From NCBI GenBank assembly GCA_002869535.1, contig PKUK01000002.1:124001-188000 (forward strand): 64,000 bases of DNA, written 5' to 3'. This DNA comes from Arcobacter sp. (GTDB lineage: Bacteria > Campylobacterota > Campylobacteria > Campylobacterales > Arcobacteraceae). Positions within the stretch are counted from its first letter, which is position 1. Each line of letters opens with the position of its first letter. Under the pieces are notes generated by a model. It saw nothing but the letters and a program-made list of their open reading frames with translations. It made no database searches and was not told the origin of the DNA. Shown here one piece after another: positions 1-11,143 of the stretch. Position numbers and translations under genes: made by a program.

Positions 1-2
1 TG

Positions 3-21
3 AGGATAATGGTCTTATCCT
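3..21 (+). terminator. Possible terminator of the gene upstream of the window
   Basis: A 7-bp inverted repeat (AGGATAA/TTATCCT, loop TGGTC) is followed by a T-rich stretch. It could end a plus-strand gene that lies before the window. It also separates that gene from the sigma-54 promoter at 68-83. The stem is short and the upstream gene cannot be seen, so confidence is low. Confidence 0.35.
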
Positions 22-67
22 TATATCTGTTTATATCATTTGCAATATCTGTTCCTTTTAAAATAAA

Positions 68-4850: not shown

Positions 4851-5039
4851 TTATGATAGGTCACTAAGTGTTGATACTTTATAAACCACATCTTTAAGTT
4901 CATTTAACTTTTTTACTATATCTTTATTGCAGTGTTCATCTAGTTCAAATCTTGTCTCCATGAAATCATATATATTATCAATGTTTGAAAAAACTTCTTG
5001 CAATAACTGCTCTTTAATCTTCTCTTGAATATTACTCAT
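4851..5039 (-). CDS. Small acidic helical protein in the nif island
   Basis: The 62-residue product is mostly helical and acidic, with no motif I recognise. Its start overlaps the stop of the NifO-like gene by ATGA, so the two are translationally coupled and read from the sigma-54-type promoter at 5420-5435. This ties it to nitrogen fixation. Function unknown. Confidence 0.6.
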   Translation of the reverse strand: MSNIQEKIKEQLLQEVFSNIDNIYDFMETRFELDEHCNKDIVKKLNELKDVVYKVSTLSDLS

Positions 5040-5395
5040 TTTATCTCCTTAAGTTTAAAATCTAAGATTTTAGTTAAATCAAATCCACAAAATTTATTAG
5101 AACCAATTGCTATAAGAGGTCTTTTTATTAATATGGGATTAGAAAGCATAAGAGATAATATCTCATCTTCTGAGGTATTTTCTATATCTAGTTCTTTGTT
5201 CTTTACAATAGGAGCATTAGGGTTTATGCAATCTTTTATACTCTTTTTTCCAAAAAAATCTAGAAGTTGATTTTTTGAAAAGTTTGTCTTTAGTAAATTA
5301 GTACTAATAACATTAAAACCAAAATCAACTAATCTCTTTTTTTGTTTGGTGTTATTTACACACCCTGGTTTTTCGTAAAAAATTACTGGAATCAT
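5036..5395 (-). CDS. Nitrogenase-associated ArsC-like protein (NifO family)
   Basis: The 119-residue protein begins IPVIFYEKPGCVNNTKQK, the thioredoxin-fold start of the nitrogenase-associated family (TIGR01616-type), related to ArsC/Spx and to Azotobacter NifO. It keeps the single Cys of the ArsC active-site loop, and the RPLIAIGSNKFCGFD region that follows the IKRPL signature. It is read divergently from nifB behind its own GGAA-N7-TGCAT promoter. NifO has been linked to molybdenum use, but the reaction of this family is not known. Confidence 0.85.
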   Translation of the reverse strand: MIPVIFYEKPGCVNNTKQKKRLVDFGFNVISTNLLKTNFSKNQLLDFFGKKSIKDCINPNAPIVKNKELDIENTSEDEILSLMLSNPILIKRPLIAIGSNKFCGFDLTKILDFKLKEIK

Positions 5396-5435: not shown

Positions 5436-5447
5436 CAGAAATTTTAT

Positions 5448-5463
5448 GGAACGCTATATGCAT
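5448..5463 (+). promoter_or_regulatory. Sigma-54-type promoter of nifB
   Basis: GG at 5448-5449 and GC at 5460-5461 with 10 bases between; the site reads GGAACG then TGCAT. The GC is 35 bp before the nifB ATG. The AAGGAG ribosome site follows at about 5485. Confidence 0.8.
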
Positions 5464-5495: not shown

Positions 5496-6944
5496 ATGAG
5501 TTGTTCTTGTACATCAAGTAGTACGCAAGAGGAATTACAACAAGAGGTTATGGATAAGATTAACAATCATCCATGTTATTCTGAGGGTGCCCATCAACAT
5601 TACGCGAGAATTCATGTTGCAGTTGCACCTGCTTGTAATATACAATGTAACTACTGTAATAGAAAATTTGATTGTTCAAATGAGAGTCGTCCTGGTGTAA
5701 CTTCATCGAAATTAAGTCCTGAAGATGCAGTAAAAAAAGTTTTATATGTAGGTGGGGATATTCAACAGCTTTCAGTTGTAGGAATCGCAGGACCTGGAGA
5801 TGCACTAGCAAATCCTAAAAAAACATTTGATACATTTAGAATGCTTCACGAAAAAGCACCTGATCAAAAATTATGTTTATCAACAAATGGACTAAGACTT
5901 CCTGATTATGTTGATGAAATGGTTAAATACAATGTTGATCACGTAACAGTTACTATTAATTCAGTTGATGAGACTGGTGAAATTGGAGCTAAAATTTACC
6001 CATGGGTACATTGGAATCATGAAAAAGTATTTGGAGCTGAGGGTGCAAAAATTCTTTTAGAACAACAACTAAAAGGTATCAAAATGCTTACTGAGCGAGG
6101 TATTTTGGTAAAAGCAAACTCTGTTTTAATTCCTGGTGTTAATGATAAAGAGTTAGTAAATGTAGCTAAAAAACTTAAAGAGTTAAATGTATTCTTACAC
6201 AATATTATGCCACTTCTTTCTAAAGAAGAGTATGGAACACATTATGGTCTTACAGGACAAGCAAGTGCTACTGATCAAGAAGTAATGGCAGCACAAGAAG
6301 CATGTGGTATGGATATGAAACTAATGAGTCACTGTAGACAATGTCGTGCAGATGCTGTTGGACTTATTGGTGAAGATAGAGGAGAAGAGTTTACTCCTGA
6401 TGTTTTCCAAAATATGTCTTGCGAAGAGTTACAAGAACAATATAACATGGAAGCAAGAGCTAAAAAACATGAAGTTATTGAAAACTGGAGAGCAGCACTT
6501 GATACTGCAAATGAAAGAATCAAAATAGAACAAGCTAGTAAACAAGAGTTAAGCTCTACTGGTGAGACTAAACTTGTAGCTGTTACAACAGCTGGTGAAG
6601 GAACAGTAAACTTACACTTTGGTAATGCTACAGAGTTCTTAATTTACGAAGTTGGTGATAAAGCTATCAAATTTGTAATGCATAGAAAAGTTGAAAATGC
6701 TTATTGTAAAGGTCCTGAAGATTGTGATGGTTCTTATCCAATTGAAGAGATTAAAAATACACTAAAAGATGTAGATATTCTTTTAACAGAAAAAATTGGT
6801 GGATGTCCTCAAGAAGAATTATCTCAAATCAACTTTATTTCTGATGACTCATATGCACTACAACCAATAGAAAAATCTGTATTTGCAGCAGCTCAAAAAT
6901 ATTTCTTTAGTGCTGAAGCAAAATCACAAAAAGAGTTAGGGTAA
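5496..6944 (+). CDS. nifB: NifB, radical SAM FeMo-cofactor core synthase
   Basis: NifB makes NifB-co, the Fe-S-C core of FeMo-co, from two [4Fe-4S] clusters and SAM. The 482-residue product has the radical SAM motif C47-x3-C51-x2-C54 (ACNIQCNYC), extra N-terminal cysteines (SCSC), and the conserved AGPGDALANP and VNSVLIPGVND segments. From about residue 355 there is a fused NifX-like domain (VAVTTAGEGTVNLHFGNA). Length and layout match two-domain NifB. It is read from a sigma-54-type promoter and followed 16 bp later by a small gene of unknown role. Confidence 0.97.
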   Translation: MSCSCTSSSTQEELQQEVMDKINNHPCYSEGAHQHYARIHVAVAPACNIQCNYCNRKFDCSNESRPGVTSSKLSPEDAVKKVLYVGGDIQQLSVVGIAGPGDALANPKKTFDTFRMLHEKAPDQKLCLSTNGLRLPDYVDEMVKYNVDHVTVTINSVDETGEIGAKIYPWVHWNHEKVFGAEGAKILLEQQLKGIKMLTERGILVKANSVLIPGVNDKELVNVAKKLKELNVFLHNIMPLLSKEEYGTHYGLTGQASATDQEVMAAQEACGMDMKLMSHCRQCRADAVGLIGEDRGEEFTPDVFQNMSCEELQEQYNMEARAKKHEVIENWRAALDTANERIKIEQASKQELSSTGETKLVAVTTAGEGTVNLHFGNATEFLIYEVGDKAIKFVMHRKVENAYCKGPEDCDGSYPIEEIKNTLKDVDILLTEKIGGCPQEELSQINFISDDSYALQPIEKSVFAAAQKYFFSAEAKSQKELG

Positions 6945-7292: not shown

Positions 7293-8408
7293 ATGTTTCT
7301 TATTAATGATACTACTTTAAGAGATGGCGAACAAGCACCATATGTAGCATTTAATACACAAGAGAAACTTTATATTGCCCAAAAACTTTATGAAGCGGGC
7401 GCTGATGAACTTGAAGTTGGAATACCAGCAATGGGAAAGAAAGAGCAAGATGATCTAAAAGAGATATTAGCTTTAAATCTTCCTATTCAAATTATGAGTT
7501 GCAATAGAGCAACAATGTCTGACTTGGAAGCCTCTTTAGGGTGTGGCTTAAAAGCGGTTGATTTGTCTATTCCAGTTTCAGATATTCTAATCGATGTAAA
7601 ATTCGGTGGAGATAAACAAAAAGTTTTAGCACAACTTGAAAAAGTTATTATTGAGGCTAAAAGAGAAGGGTTATTTGTTTGCATTGGGGGAGAAGATTCA
7701 AGTCGCGCGGATTTGGATTTTTTAAAAGAGATTTTAGCCTTAGGTAAAAGTCTTGGTGCAAATAGATTTAGATATTGCGATACGGTTGGAATATTAACAC
7801 CAACAAAAACTTATCAAAATATAAGTGAACTTACAAAGTTAGATTTACTTGATATTGAGATGCATACCCACAATGATTTTGGTATGGCAACAGCAAATGC
7901 AATTTCTGGTTATGAAGCAGGAGCTAAAAGTGCTAATACAACAGTTATTGGATTGGGTGAACGCGCGGGGAATGCATCTTTTGAGCAAGTATTGATGACT
8001 TTGGCAAGACTTCTTGGAAAAAATACTCAAATAAAACCTGATAAATTAAAAGCACTTATTCAAACAGTAGGATTAGCTTCAAATAGAAGAATTGATACTA
8101 ATTTACCTATTGTAGGAGAGTATATTTTTTCACATGAGTCAGGTATTCATGTAAATGGTATGATGAAATCAAAAAGTGCCTATGAACCATTTACTCCTAT
8201 GGATGTTGGGCTAGAGAGATGTTTCCCTATTGGAAAACATTCAGGAACATCAACACTACTTTTTCATCTACAAGCATTGGGAATAACTCCAACAAAAGAG
8301 AGTTTACAAAAAATATTGCCAATAGTAAGAGAGATTGTGACAAGTAGAAAGAAAGTGTTAGATATAAAAGAATTGGAAGAGTTATACTTATGTTCGTTGG
8401 ATATTTAA
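7293..8408 (+). CDS. nifV: NifV, homocitrate synthase
   Basis: This enzyme condenses acetyl-CoA with 2-oxoglutarate to give R-homocitrate, the organic ligand of FeMo-co. The 371-residue product starts with the family signature NDTTLRDGEQAP, has the metal-site HTHNDFGMATANA motif and the GLGERAGNASFEQV motif, and the length of NifV without a LeuA regulatory domain. It has its own sigma-54-type promoter. It overlaps the next gene by 19 bp. Confidence 0.93.
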   Translation: MFLINDTTLRDGEQAPYVAFNTQEKLYIAQKLYEAGADELEVGIPAMGKKEQDDLKEILALNLPIQIMSCNRATMSDLEASLGCGLKAVDLSIPVSDILIDVKFGGDKQKVLAQLEKVIIEAKREGLFVCIGGEDSSRADLDFLKEILALGKSLGANRFRYCDTVGILTPTKTYQNISELTKLDLLDIEMHTHNDFGMATANAISGYEAGAKSANTTVIGLGERAGNASFEQVLMTLARLLGKNTQIKPDKLKALIQTVGLASNRRIDTNLPIVGEYIFSHESGIHVNGMMKSKSAYEPFTPMDVGLERCFPIGKHSGTSTLLFHLQALGITPTKESLQKILPIVREIVTSRKKVLDIKELEELYLCSLDI

Positions 8409-9196
8409 GAAATAGTTTCGAAGAAGAGCTTTCTGCAATAATAGAAAGTGATAAGCTTTTTGACCTAGAGTTATTAAAGCAGACCTATGAAGTATATCCT
8501 GAATACTGTTTTGCTGCTTATGATGAGGGTAAAATAGTTGGAGTAATTAGTGCTTATGCTTTTAGTAAACATATTTTTATAAATGTAATAAATGTCTTGG
8601 ATGAACATAAAGAAGTTCTAACAAGACTTATAAAACTTTTAGTTCAAAATGTCTCAAGTATGAATATTTATGTTTTAGTTGAAGATAAATTAAACTCATA
8701 TTTCACAGCATTTAAGTTTCAAGAGCATTCAAAGTTTTTGAGATATATGCATAGTGGAGAGGCTGTTGCATTTAATTTTTCAAACTCAACTGCAAAACAA
8801 GTAAGCGGTGAAAATTATGTGGAGATATCTAAAGAGATAGATAAAAAAGTATTTTGGGATGATAGAGAAGAGTATATAAAAAAAGATTGTGTTTTTTCAA
8901 ACTCTTTAAAGCTCTCTACTACAAGTGGTTTTATGCACTCTTATGTTGTAAATAAAAGATATATAAGAATCTCACCTTGGCTTATGCAAAATGAATCTTA
9001 CTTAGATGCTGAAAAGCTTTTAAGAGGAGTTTTGTATTATCGAGGGTTAAAGAAAATCTTTGCTTTTATACCAAAAGATATAAAAGAGATAAGTGAACTC
9101 TATGAGAGTTACAAATTTAAAAAAGATGCAAATTTTACTTTGCTTTATTTAGGTGAAAAACCTGAAATAAAGTTAGAGAATTTATATGCAATTTAG
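8390..9196 (+). CDS. GNAT-like N-acetyltransferase, possibly tandem
   Basis: The 268-residue protein has a GNAT-type core in its N-terminal half (PEYCFAAYDEGKIVGVISAYAF, the beta-bulge region before acetyl-CoA binding). The second half (RYIRISPWLMQNE...) may be a degenerate second copy. The acetyl-CoA loop is not clear. The start at 8390 lies inside the nifV end, so the pair is translationally coupled and shares the nifV promoter. A role in nitrogen fixation is inferred only from this position. Confidence 0.55.
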   Translation: MFVGYLRNSFEEELSAIIESDKLFDLELLKQTYEVYPEYCFAAYDEGKIVGVISAYAFSKHIFINVINVLDEHKEVLTRLIKLLVQNVSSMNIYVLVEDKLNSYFTAFKFQEHSKFLRYMHSGEAVAFNFSNSTAKQVSGENYVEISKEIDKKVFWDDREEYIKKDCVFSNSLKLSTTSGFMHSYVVNKRYIRISPWLMQNESYLDAEKLLRGVLYYRGLKKIFAFIPKDIKEISELYESYKFKKDANFTLLYLGEKPEIKLENLYAI

Positions 9197-9198
9197 AA

Positions 9199-9222
9199 AA
9201 AGTACGACTCGTCGTACTCTTT
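9199..9222 (+). terminator. Terminator after the nifV operon
   Basis: AGTACGAC (9201-9208) and its perfect complement (9211-9218) form a tight hairpin flanked by A and T runs, directly after the GNAT-like gene. It works on paper in both directions. Confidence 0.65.
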
Positions 9223-9253
9223 AGGATTTCTCAAAGAGAGTGCAAGCACAAGG

Positions 9254-9291
9254 CTTCTTTAAAGGTGGCTTTGCCATCTTGTAAAAAGAAG
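9254..9291 (+). promoter_or_regulatory. Nested hairpin in the leader of the DUF683 gene
   Basis: Outer arms CTTCTTT (9254-9260) and AAAGAAG (9285-9291) surround an inner 8-bp stem (9262-9269 with 9273-9280, one G-T pair, loop TTT). It stands between the terminator at 9199-9222 and the SD hairpin at 9305-9337. No sigma-54-type promoter was found in this gap. Confidence 0.4.
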
Positions 9292-9304
9292 TAGAAAATG
9301 AAAG

Positions 9305-9339
9305 GTTCCCTTTTAAATTGGGAACAAATTTAAAAGGAG
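9305..9339 (+). promoter_or_regulatory. Two exclusive hairpins, one masking the DUF683 Shine-Dalgarno
   Basis: Stem A pairs GTTCCC (9305-9310) with GGGAAC (9320-9325). Stem B pairs 9309-9319 with 9327-9337 in a perfect 11-bp duplex that covers the AAGG of the ribosome site AAGGAG (9334-9339). Bases 9309-9310 are used in both, so only one can form. This is the layout of a translational switch or RNA thermometer. That it switches is inference. Confidence 0.5.
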
Positions 9340-9345
9340 AATATT

Positions 9346-9555
9346 ATGGCAGATTTAACACCTGAACAAAAAGAGAAGAAAAAAGAGTTAGCAAAATACA
9401 AAAGAAAAGTTGTAGAAAAAGCTGGCGTTATGCATGATATTGTTGAAGATACAATCTGGACTGACTATGTGAAGTTGCCTCAACTTAGTGAAGAGATAGG
9501 CTTAGCTATGAAAGATGTTGAAAGCTTTCTAGACGAACATCCTTATTTAAGATAA
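9346..9555 (+). CDS. DUF683 (Rop-like, CCE_0567-type) nif protein
   Basis: The 69-residue product starts with a basic helix (PEQKEKKKELAKYKRK) and has the HDIVEDTIWTDYVKLPQLSEE core of the DUF683 family, small helical-hairpin proteins coded almost only in nif clusters. Their biochemical role is not settled. The gene is followed 6 bp later by the Cys-rich gene. Translation may be controlled by the hairpin over its ribosome site. Confidence 0.82.
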   Translation: MADLTPEQKEKKKELAKYKRKVVEKAGVMHDIVEDTIWTDYVKLPQLSEEIGLAMKDVESFLDEHPYLR

Positions 9556-9561
9556 AATACT

Positions 9562-9816
9562 ATGGAAGATTTAAAATATAAAATTATTTGTGAATGTGGA
9601 GAGAAAACAGTTCTTGATGCAGTAAAAATATTTGAAACTACAGATCTTCCATATAAGAAAGCTAAAAAGTTAGTTACAGGATGTAATAAAACTTGTTGTA
9701 GAAAACCTCTTATGGCATTGTTTAATATGGTCGACTTTGGATTTGTTGATTATGAAGAAGTATCATTTTTAATAGATGCTATGAATGATAGATTAAAGGG
9801 ACAAAATGAGAAGTAA
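9562..9816 (+). CDS. Small Cys-rich protein, possibly Fe-S binding
   Basis: The 84-residue product has CEC at residues 10-12 and GCNKTCC near residue 40-46, giving five cysteines in a C-x-C...C-x3-C-C pattern. This resembles the [2Fe-2S] layout of bacterioferritin-associated ferredoxin and the central NifU domain, but the spacing differs, so the family is uncertain. It overlaps the LRR gene by 11 bp and sits in a run of nif accessory genes. Confidence 0.55.
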   Translation: MEDLKYKIICECGEKTVLDAVKIFETTDLPYKKAKKLVTGCNKTCCRKPLMALFNMVDFGFVDYEEVSFLIDAMNDRLKGQNEK

Positions 9817-10798
9817 AATTGAAGATTTTGTTAGATGTGTTCATACAAACGGATTAAGCGCTTTCATTTCCACTCATATTGATGATATAAACGGCATGAC
9901 TCATTTGGATTTATCAAAAAAGAAAATCCGAGAAATCCCCGAATCCTTTTCTGTGTTGGAAAATCTAACAGTTTTAAAGCTATCAAATAATAGATTAACG
10001 AAGTTACCCAATTGCATAGGAGACTTTAAATATCTAAAAAACCTACAATGTGAAAATAATTTACTTACAGAACTTCCAAGTAGTATTGGAAACTTATCTA
10101 AACTAATGATTTTAAATCTAAATGGGAACAGACTAGAGTATCTTCCAAAAGAGTTATATGACTTGAAAAGTCTTACAAGACTTACATTAGCTGCAAACAA
10201 GATAAAAGAGTTGGATAAGGATTTAGAAAAGCTAAATAAGCTTTTATACTTCTCTTTAGATACTAATGAGTTAGATGAACTTCCTGATAGTTTTTCTAAG
10301 ATGAAGTCTTTATATTATTTAGATGTTTCCTTTAACAACTTAACTAAATTACCCAACTCTATTTCTCAAATAGAAGAGCTACAAACACTACTTTTAGAGG
10401 GAAATCAAATAGATGATTTACCATCTTTAGAATCTCATGATATGCTGATAAAACTTGATTTAAGTGAAAATTCCTTGAAGTCATTGGACTTTAATGTTAG
10501 TAAATTAGAAGATTTGAAAATTCTTATTTTGGATAATAACTTTTTAACAACACTACCTGATGAGGTGTGTGAATTAAGCAATTTAAACAATTTGAGTATA
10601 AGCTCAAATTCCCTAATAAGACTTCCAGAAAATATTGGAGAGCTTCAAAACCTAGAAGAGTTGGATTTAGAAGATAACAATATTAAAAGATTGCCAGAGA
10701 GTTTTACAAAGCTAAAAAAGCTAAAAAACCTATATTTAGCTGATAATAATGGAGTAGAAAAGCCTGAGGGAATGGAATTTGAATATTGTGACTTATAA
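9806..10798 (+). CDS. Leucine-rich-repeat protein of the nif island
   Basis: The 330 residues are almost wholly LRRs of about 23 residues with the pattern LxxLxLxxNxLxxLPxxIxxL; about a dozen copies are seen from residue 32 on. There is no signal peptide or membrane segment, so it is cytosolic. LRR proteins bind other proteins, and LRR genes are known next to nif genes in several diazotrophs without an assigned job. It is coupled to the Cys-rich gene before it. Confidence 0.8.
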   Translation: MRSKIEDFVRCVHTNGLSAFISTHIDDINGMTHLDLSKKKIREIPESFSVLENLTVLKLSNNRLTKLPNCIGDFKYLKNLQCENNLLTELPSSIGNLSKLMILNLNGNRLEYLPKELYDLKSLTRLTLAANKIKELDKDLEKLNKLLYFSLDTNELDELPDSFSKMKSLYYLDVSFNNLTKLPNSISQIEELQTLLLEGNQIDDLPSLESHDMLIKLDLSENSLKSLDFNVSKLEDLKILILDNNFLTTLPDEVCELSNLNNLSISSNSLIRLPENIGELQNLEELDLEDNNIKRLPESFTKLKKLKNLYLADNNGVEKPEGMEFEYCDL

Positions 10799-10822
10799 GA
10801 AAGCAATTTAAAGGAGTTTAGT

Positions 10823-11143
10823 ATGCTTGATTTAGAACTTATGGAAAAAGAGGTTTTAGCTCTTTTAGTAAAACATGCAAATAATGAAGATATAAAAACT
10901 ACCCTAGCTCCTCTTATAGCAAAAACTTCTATCGAGATGGGACATCTTTATTCTGACTTGGGATTACCAAGCAGAGCAGAGATGGGAAAACTTATGAGTG
11001 CAAACTTCTCAACACTAGCAAAAATGAAACCTGATGATGTTAGATGGAAAAAGTATCTATATGACTGTATAGGAAAAACTGCACCTGCGTGTGCAAAGTG
11101 TACGGATATCTCAAACTGTTTTAACTGCTCATTAGCTTCATAA
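10823..11143 (+). CDS. Short NifQ-like protein
   Basis: NifQ brings molybdenum to FeMo-co assembly. The C-terminal third, DVRWKKYLYDC...APACAKCTDISNCFN, matches the NifQ signature MKWKKFxY...APxCxxCx5CF. The first Cys of the NifQ C-x4-C-x2-C-x5-C motif is Lys here, with a nearby Cys three residues earlier and an additional Cys after CFN. At 106 residues it is shorter than usual NifQ (about 160-190), lacking much of the N-terminus. It is the last gene of the island. Confidence 0.62.
   Translation: MLDLELMEKEVLALLVKHANNEDIKTTLAPLIAKTSIEMGHLYSDLGLPSRAEMGKLMSANFSTLAKMKPDDVRWKKYLYDCIGKTAPACAKCTDISNCFNCSLAS

Follow-up and report, generated by a model that had tools for sequence, protein, structure and literature searches.

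The window analysed here, a 64,000-nucleotide stretch of Arcobacter sp. DNA, is located on contig 7 of a genome of 2.68 Mb and carries a run of small genes downstream of a nif cluster (Table 1). By their sequences, we take the genes of the upstream cluster to be nifH, nifD, nifE, and nifN; TIGR01282 confirmed nifD and also gave a nifE-like match there. The last four genes of the run encode a DUF683 protein, a small cysteine-containing protein (here termed CYS), a leucine-rich repeat (LRR) protein, and a short NifQ. The preliminary description had read this section as four tightly packed genes, and ORF calls and Pfam searches recovered all four, with 6 nt between the DUF683 gene and CYS, an overlap of 11 nt between CYS and the LRR gene, and a gap of 24 nt before nifQ. 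The conserved run nifB-nifV-GNAT-DUF683-CYS-LRR is headed by a gene that, by its sequence, we take to be nifB; the name is consistent with TIGR01290, as scanned on the phmmer homologue in another genome of the sample (G186).

Table 1. Genes of the nifB-nifQ run in the window (positions in the 64,000-nucleotide stretch).
Feature	Position	Strand	Characteristics
nifB	5496..6944	+	ORF; heads the conserved run
nifV (homocitrate synthase)	7293..8408	+	ORF; TIGR02660 on the G186 homologue agrees with the name
GNAT-domain protein	8390..9196	+	between nifV and DUF683; PF18014 27.1 bits, cut-off 22.7
Rop-like/DUF683 protein	9346..9555	+	69 aa; PF05082 29.7 bits, cut-off 27
CYS	9562..9816	+	84 aa; Cys at residues 10, 12, 41, 45, 46; predicted Bfd-like fold
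LRR protein	9806..10798	+	330 aa; Pfam LRR families, LRR_8 E 1e-36, 7 stretches
Short NifQ	10823..11143	+	106 aa; PF04891 80.6 bits, cut-off 27, profile positions 58-158 of 159

Just upstream of nifB, a sigma-54-like site with two mismatches was detected (5447-5461), which may drive the run nifB-nifV-DUF683-CYS-LRR-nifQ. The pattern scan gave 42 matches compared to 25 expected, a number reached in 0 of 100 shuffles; none of the 42 had fewer than two mismatches. No Rfam family matched within the window at gathering scores. Parts of the approximately 150 bp between the GNAT gene and DUF683 (9197-9345) are repeated at five other sites of the genome; in an alignment with ten other loci, a piece of this spacer was present in L065 and missing from the other nine. 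An ArsC-like protein is encoded on the minus strand at 5036-5395 and is close to the nitrogenase-associated TIGR01616 (102.7 bits, cut-off 109). Positions 1232-1870, within the nif cluster, encode a fusion protein of Sel1 repeats with a NifU (Nfu) domain at the C terminus, and matches to this query are found near nifQ in several loci.

CYS did not match any Pfam or NCBIfam family at E-values up to 0.001. All five cysteines are kept in 117 of 118 distinct intact homologues, a count from which a 39-aa broken piece of G224 was left out. The single exception (L115) lacks C41, which makes C10, C12, C45, and C46 the more probable ligands. The spacing is CxC-x28-C-x3-CC in 114 of the 117 sequences and x30/x4 in the other three. 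Between the two cysteine groups, the stretch L29-P30-x2-K-A-K-K-L-V-T39 is strongly conserved. Among the papers listed in literature searches, none describes this protein in its title or in the opening lines of its abstract.

An AF2 model of CYS built from 28 sequences (pLDDT 88.6, pTM 0.75) was compared with 39 chains using VIA-align. The bacterioferritin-associated ferredoxin Bfd aligned best (4e6k/6e6r, Z 6.0/5.9, rmsd 2.1, 55/56 residues), followed by an unrelated chain with Z 2.7; a Z of 6 is middling, and according to the tool's own note, such values are common. In a Foldseek search with the model, Bfd appeared only at rank 5 with an E-value of 4.0 and a TM-score of 0.73 by target length. 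The end points of the alignment (7..61 on 1..56) set C10/C12 over residues 4/6 of Bfd, its CxC ligands; the position of the gap is not given, so that the placement of the second cysteine pair is not fixed. The ligand pattern of Bfd is CxC...CxxC. CYS differs from Bfd in its second group, C-x3-CC instead of CxxC, in an extra C-terminal helix (64-82), in a sequence identity of only 11-12%, and in its restriction to nif genomes in our sample.

Sequence profiles pointed in the same direction over a short section. The CYS profile scored 26.7 against Bfd/NifU domains, whereas reversing the profile gave 19.3 and none of 150 column permutations exceeded 18.4, in a match of only 24 columns comprising the CxC and the first helix; the 30 BFD domains used came from the family of the window (f1) and were picked by a CxC...CxxC-type pattern. 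The IVCEC start and the next helix of the central Bfd-like domain of NifU resemble the IICEC... of CYS, which is a standalone protein without the IscU or Nfu domains of NifU. PF04324 (Fer2_BFD) did not match any of 28 CYS members at E-values up to 10, a range in which the HMMER filters drop most matches above 0.1. The best matches in sequence searches of the PDB had E-values of 0.3 (single sequence, a ferredoxin) and 0.023 (profile, RNA polymerase subunit F) and were both taken as chance. On the strength of the model, CYS is predicted to have a Bfd-like fold, and it would bind an Fe-S cluster, probably [2Fe-2S], via the CxC and the following Cys/CysCys loop. Since the CxC-x28-C-x3-CC arrangement differs from that of Bfd, such a cluster is only putative. 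The idea that CYS replaces a dedicated NifU that the genomes lack was considered and rejected, because several long NifU_N genes, in part located near nifQ, accompany CYS in some genomes. The genome of the window has a single NifU_N match, located on another contig, and five other BFD domain matches.

The proteins encoded beside CYS have conserved features as well. An alignment of 47 DUF683 proteins displayed an HDIVEDT-x-W core that is conserved in the phylum and would be consistent with metal binding. DUF683 did not match any NCBIfam model, and the best PDB sequence match had an E-value of 0.18. A DUF683 metalloprotein, CCE_0567, is referenced in an excerpt of PMC3538637. The window protein shares with this family a score above the PF05082 cut-off, the nif context, and the conserved HDIVEDT, and differs in lying beside a Bfd-like protein instead of FdxB. 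The LRR proteins (n = 40) are either 324-344 or 476-512 aa long. The protein of the window had been described as a pure LRR scaffold; however, its homologues also have an N-terminal F..W and a C-terminal E-x-C-D in common.

The nifQ gene of the window is the sole NifQ match in the genome. Its product retains the C-terminal half of the PF04891 family with the APxCx2Cx5C core, and the motif APACAKCTDISNCF is present, as had been stated before, while the first cysteine of the pseudomonadotal motif is absent and the Pfam profile is unmatched over its N-terminal half. The protein thus lacks the Cx4Cx2Cx5C pattern of Pseudomonadota for want of its first cysteine, which most pseudomonadotal NifQ proteins examined possess. 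It has one further cysteine after the last (C-x2-C, CFNC), which results in C90-x2-C93-x5-C99-x2-C102. This arrangement without the first cysteine was found in 54 of 58 distinct NifQ sequences from the fetched loci; of the remaining four, three are full-length proteins that have the first cysteine without the last, and one has neither at those places. Eight NifQ proteins encoded on plasmids of Pseudomonadota all lack the last cysteine; six have the first, and two from Azospirillum have neither. Short forms occur in 70 of 73 genomes and full-length forms in three (G395, G117, and G355). Judged from these sequences, the short NifQ is a phylum-wide variant with a moved cysteine, and the protein of the window is best explained as a short molybdenum donor with its own four-cysteine motif. 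A model of NifQ gave a confident helical bundle (pLDDT 86.7) with a cysteine tail of low confidence; the fold search returned nothing at an E-value below 6, and the PDB sequence search had no match at E-values up to 1.

The preliminary description had suggested that CYS supplies the ligand missing in NifQ. Because the short NifQ has four motif cysteines of its own in 54 of 58 sequences, and CYS is also present in all three genomes with a full-length NifQ, CYS need not supply a ligand, and this role was rejected. The latter genomes also exclude a confinement of CYS to genomes with a short NifQ. In Azotobacter, NifU gives a cluster to NifQ, according to an excerpt of PMC11605450. Four loci (L121-L124) carry nifQ approximately 1-1.5 kb from a gene for a 326-327-aa protein matched by the NifU-domain query, with NifU_N recognised there in G143, which fits the published transfer from NifU to NifQ.

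The distribution of CYS was analysed in 397 genomes of Campylobacterota. nifD (TIGR01282) was detected in 78 of them at E-values up to 0.001, 73 of which scored over the cut-off. CYS was found in 73 genomes at E-values up to 0.01: 71 of the 73 with nifD over the cut-off, two of the five with weaker nifD matches (G224 and G368), and none of the 319 nifD-negative genomes. NifQ is likewise encoded in 73 genomes, 72 of them shared with CYS, which supports the association with nif and the co-occurrence of CYS and NifQ in the phylum. This co-occurrence reflects nif specificity and does not alone single out a partner or the step served. DUF683 was detected in 67 of 77 nif-related genomes searched (the 78 nifD genomes minus G245, whose nifD match has an E-value of 5e-4). 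The profile search did not find CYS in two genomes with nifD over the cut-off, G186 and G335; in G335, the nifV-GNAT run stops at a contig end and CYS is absent from the assembly. Beyond the 397 genomes, a scan for the pattern KAKKLVTxC recovered 111 relatives, the best 80 of which are, by their titles, from campylobacterotal or unassigned metagenome-assembled genomes, apart from one titled Proteobacteria; with this single pattern and a plasmid search as the means used outside Campylobacterota, distant relatives could have escaped. The plasmid search gave a single match at an E-value of 6, taken as chance. Two unusual clusters were seen in the sample. In G224 (L116), the nif cluster is fragmented, with nifB, nifV, nifD, DUF683, and CYS as short or broken frames, which reflects either decay or poor assembly. 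G007 (L289) has a compact nifH/nifE/nifN/nifB-like cluster with a nifD match below the cut-off and no match to NifQ, CYS, or DUF683, perhaps another nitrogenase-like system.

Synteny was examined in stretches around CYS from 58 of the 73 CYS genomes, in addition to the broken pieces of G224. Neighbouring homologues were identified in phmmer searches that used 29 proteins from the genome of the window as queries, and counts near the ends of stretches are lower bounds. DUF683 is located immediately 5' of CYS in 46 of the 58 loci and the LRR gene immediately 3' in 40, with gaps of -47 to +8 nt. The tight coupling proposed for the four genes thus holds for DUF683-CYS-LRR, often with overlapping frames. 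Other neighbouring genes are similarly frequent: nifV lies within 3 kb of CYS in 51 loci, nifB within 5 kb in 45, and GNAT within 3 kb in 43, and nifH follows CYS in several. NifQ, which had been counted as part of the unit, is not a general member: it is found within 2.5 kb of CYS in only 16 of the 58 loci, and the family to which the window belongs (f1, presumably Arcobacteraceae) accounts for 15 of these.

The same separation of NifQ from the other genes is seen in G186, an assembly of 10 contigs. Here, nifB-nifV-GNAT is followed by 237 bp and nifH, while the relatives L290 and L293 have the order GNAT-DUF683-CYS-LRR-nifH. DUF683 and CYS are absent from G186 genome-wide and the LRR gene from that stretch, where it was looked for; nifB, nifV, nifH, and nifQ are retained. 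This joint absence suggests, for one genome, that DUF683, CYS, and LRR form a block that excludes NifQ. If the nif cluster of G186 is functional, the block is dispensable in at least one lineage.

In 18 of the 58 loci, no LRR gene adjoins CYS. Seven of them (L095, L097, L104, L107, L110, L112, and L117) have a frame of 145-162 aa that overlaps the CYS stop codon by 4 or 11 nt; the one that was searched, in L104, encodes a GNAT protein. In the remaining loci, CYS is followed by nifH, a flavodiiron-like gene, a Fer2 ferredoxin gene, or nothing recognised. In L089 (6565-8957) and L111 (7922-10243), both from genomes with a full-length NifQ, CYS precedes a Fer2 ferredoxin gene and a gene for an FrdA/SdhA-like (fumarate-reductase-like) flavoprotein; these stretches contain no further homologue of any of the 29 queries. 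These neighbours hint at a redox context for CYS.

Pairs of DUF683 with a small Fe-S protein are known from other bacteria. Two beta-proteobacterial plasmids (L273 and L276) have the order DUF683-fdxB-nifQ, which the other fetched plasmid stretches lack. For Mesorhizobium loti, an excerpt of PMC3538637 describes msi338-msi337(fdxB)-nifQ and a second such pair, and its text suggests that msi338 is a DUF683 gene. As predicted for the window, DUF683 is followed there by a small Fe-S protein and nifQ; in contrast to the window, the annotation of the Fe-S protein is ferredoxin III, and the order is not interrupted by an LRR gene. The pairing of DUF683 with a small Fe-S protein therefore recurs in another phylum. 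The same excerpt reports that nifQ alone restored both the DUF683 and the fdxB mutants of M. loti. In Pseudomonas stutzeri A1501, according to an excerpt of PMC2820453, a DUF683 gene is among those strongly induced in nitrogen fixation (63.84) and precedes a [4Fe-4S] ferredoxin gene. The nif island of this strain includes PST1332, with leucine-rich repeats, and PST1337, which encodes a DUF683 protein. Unlike in the window, these two are not adjacent, and the table of that paper places nifQ far from both.

Taken together, we consider the chances about even that DUF683, CYS, and LRR make up a nif-specific module for redox or cluster delivery beside nifB-nifV, with CYS as a Bfd-fold protein and NifQ as a neighbour in one family that does not need CYS for ligands. 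The unit is joined to nifB-nifV in most of the diazotrophic campylobacterotal loci examined. CYS would most likely hand electrons, or else a cluster, to FeMo-cofactor assembly at a step near the products of NifB and NifV, with DUF683 as its putative partner and the LRR protein as a possible docking platform; NifQ would act as molybdenum donor, its gene being part of this run in the family of the window. This reading draws on the predicted fold, the distribution, the synteny, the joint absence in G186, the neighbours in L089 and L111, the DUF683-Fe-S pairs elsewhere, and the cysteine shift in NifQ. Weighing against it are the Foldseek rank and E-value, the middling Z, the lack of a Fer2_BFD match in the members searched, the 24-column profile match, the cysteine pattern unlike that of Bfd, the nif genes without the module in G186, the 18 loci without an adjacent LRR gene, and the rescue by nifQ alone reported in the M. 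loti excerpt. From the preliminary interpretation, the nif association, the co-occurrence of CYS with NifQ, and the coupling of DUF683, CYS, and LRR, which are also jointly absent from one site in G186, are supported, while the donation of a ligand to NifQ and the general membership of NifQ are not.

That all four proteins assemble into a single complex for molybdenum/Fe-S delivery, with a defective NifQ whose cluster site is completed by CYS, would agree with the abutting genes in the window, the 16 loci with nearby NifQ, the 72 shared genomes, and the DUF683-ferredoxin-nifQ order in the two plasmids and in the M. loti excerpt (PMC3538637). With NifQ outside 2.5 kb in 42 of 58 loci, retained without CYS in G186, and mostly equipped with its own four cysteines, and with CYS beside full-length NifQ in three of three cases, such a complex appears quite improbable. 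Somewhat better placed, though still unlikely, is a Bfd-fold protein that has no Fe-S redox function and instead acts, for instance, as an adaptor of the nif operon that binds zinc or has a regulatory task. The adjacent CysCys, the departure from the Bfd cysteine pattern, and the failure of Pfam to recognise Bfd speak for it, and the conserved stretch L29-P30-x2-K-A-K-K-L-V-T39 suggests contact with a protein or nucleic acid; the CxC at the Bfd ligand place and the redox neighbours in L089 and L111 speak against it.

Nitrogenase assembly needs much iron, and CYS might be a true Bfd that releases iron from ferritin for this purpose, as its predicted fold would allow. Its cysteine pattern differs from that of Bfd, and with five other BFD matches in the genome a nif-only copy is not obviously needed; we regard this as the least probable of the explanations considered. 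By analogy with the Shethna protein (FeSII), a [2Fe-2S] protein of Azotobacter, the module might instead protect or repair nitrogenase. A small predicted Fe-S protein tied to nif would suit such a function, as would the Fer2 ferredoxin adjoining it in two genomes. In most of the loci examined, however, the module is syntenic with nifB-nifV, although nifH follows in several, and the fold of FeSII differs from that predicted for CYS, which leaves protection or repair a very doubtful reading. The cluster-delivery module is thus the explanation that we prefer.

Of the new points, the strongest are the predicted Bfd-like nature and the nif specificity of CYS, the DUF683-CYS-LRR block, and the cysteine shift in NifQ. 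According to an excerpt of a 2024 paper on NifQ, to which NifU feeds clusters, an unknown protein probably mediates the exchange of Fe for Mo (PMC11605450); a nif-specific Bfd-like protein such as CYS would be a concrete candidate for this mediator. It is conceivable, though we consider it speculative and on balance unlikely, that CYS founds a new nif-dedicated family of Bfd-fold metalloproteins with an unusual five-cysteine site, which is dedicated to supplying FeMo-cofactor assembly in Campylobacterota with electrons or clusters. CYS could then even be the mediator of the exchange of Fe for Mo on NifQ, usually in partnership with DUF683 and an LRR docking protein. The compact NifQ with its moved fourth cysteine indicates the portion of the protein that may be sufficient, and it could provide a smaller piece for the engineering of nitrogenase in other hosts. 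A protein without a Pfam or NCBIfam name that tracks nif almost one-to-one in the sampled genomes of the phylum suggests, in our judgement, that FeMo-cofactor assembly has a component still missing from its description in organisms that have been little studied for nitrogen fixation.
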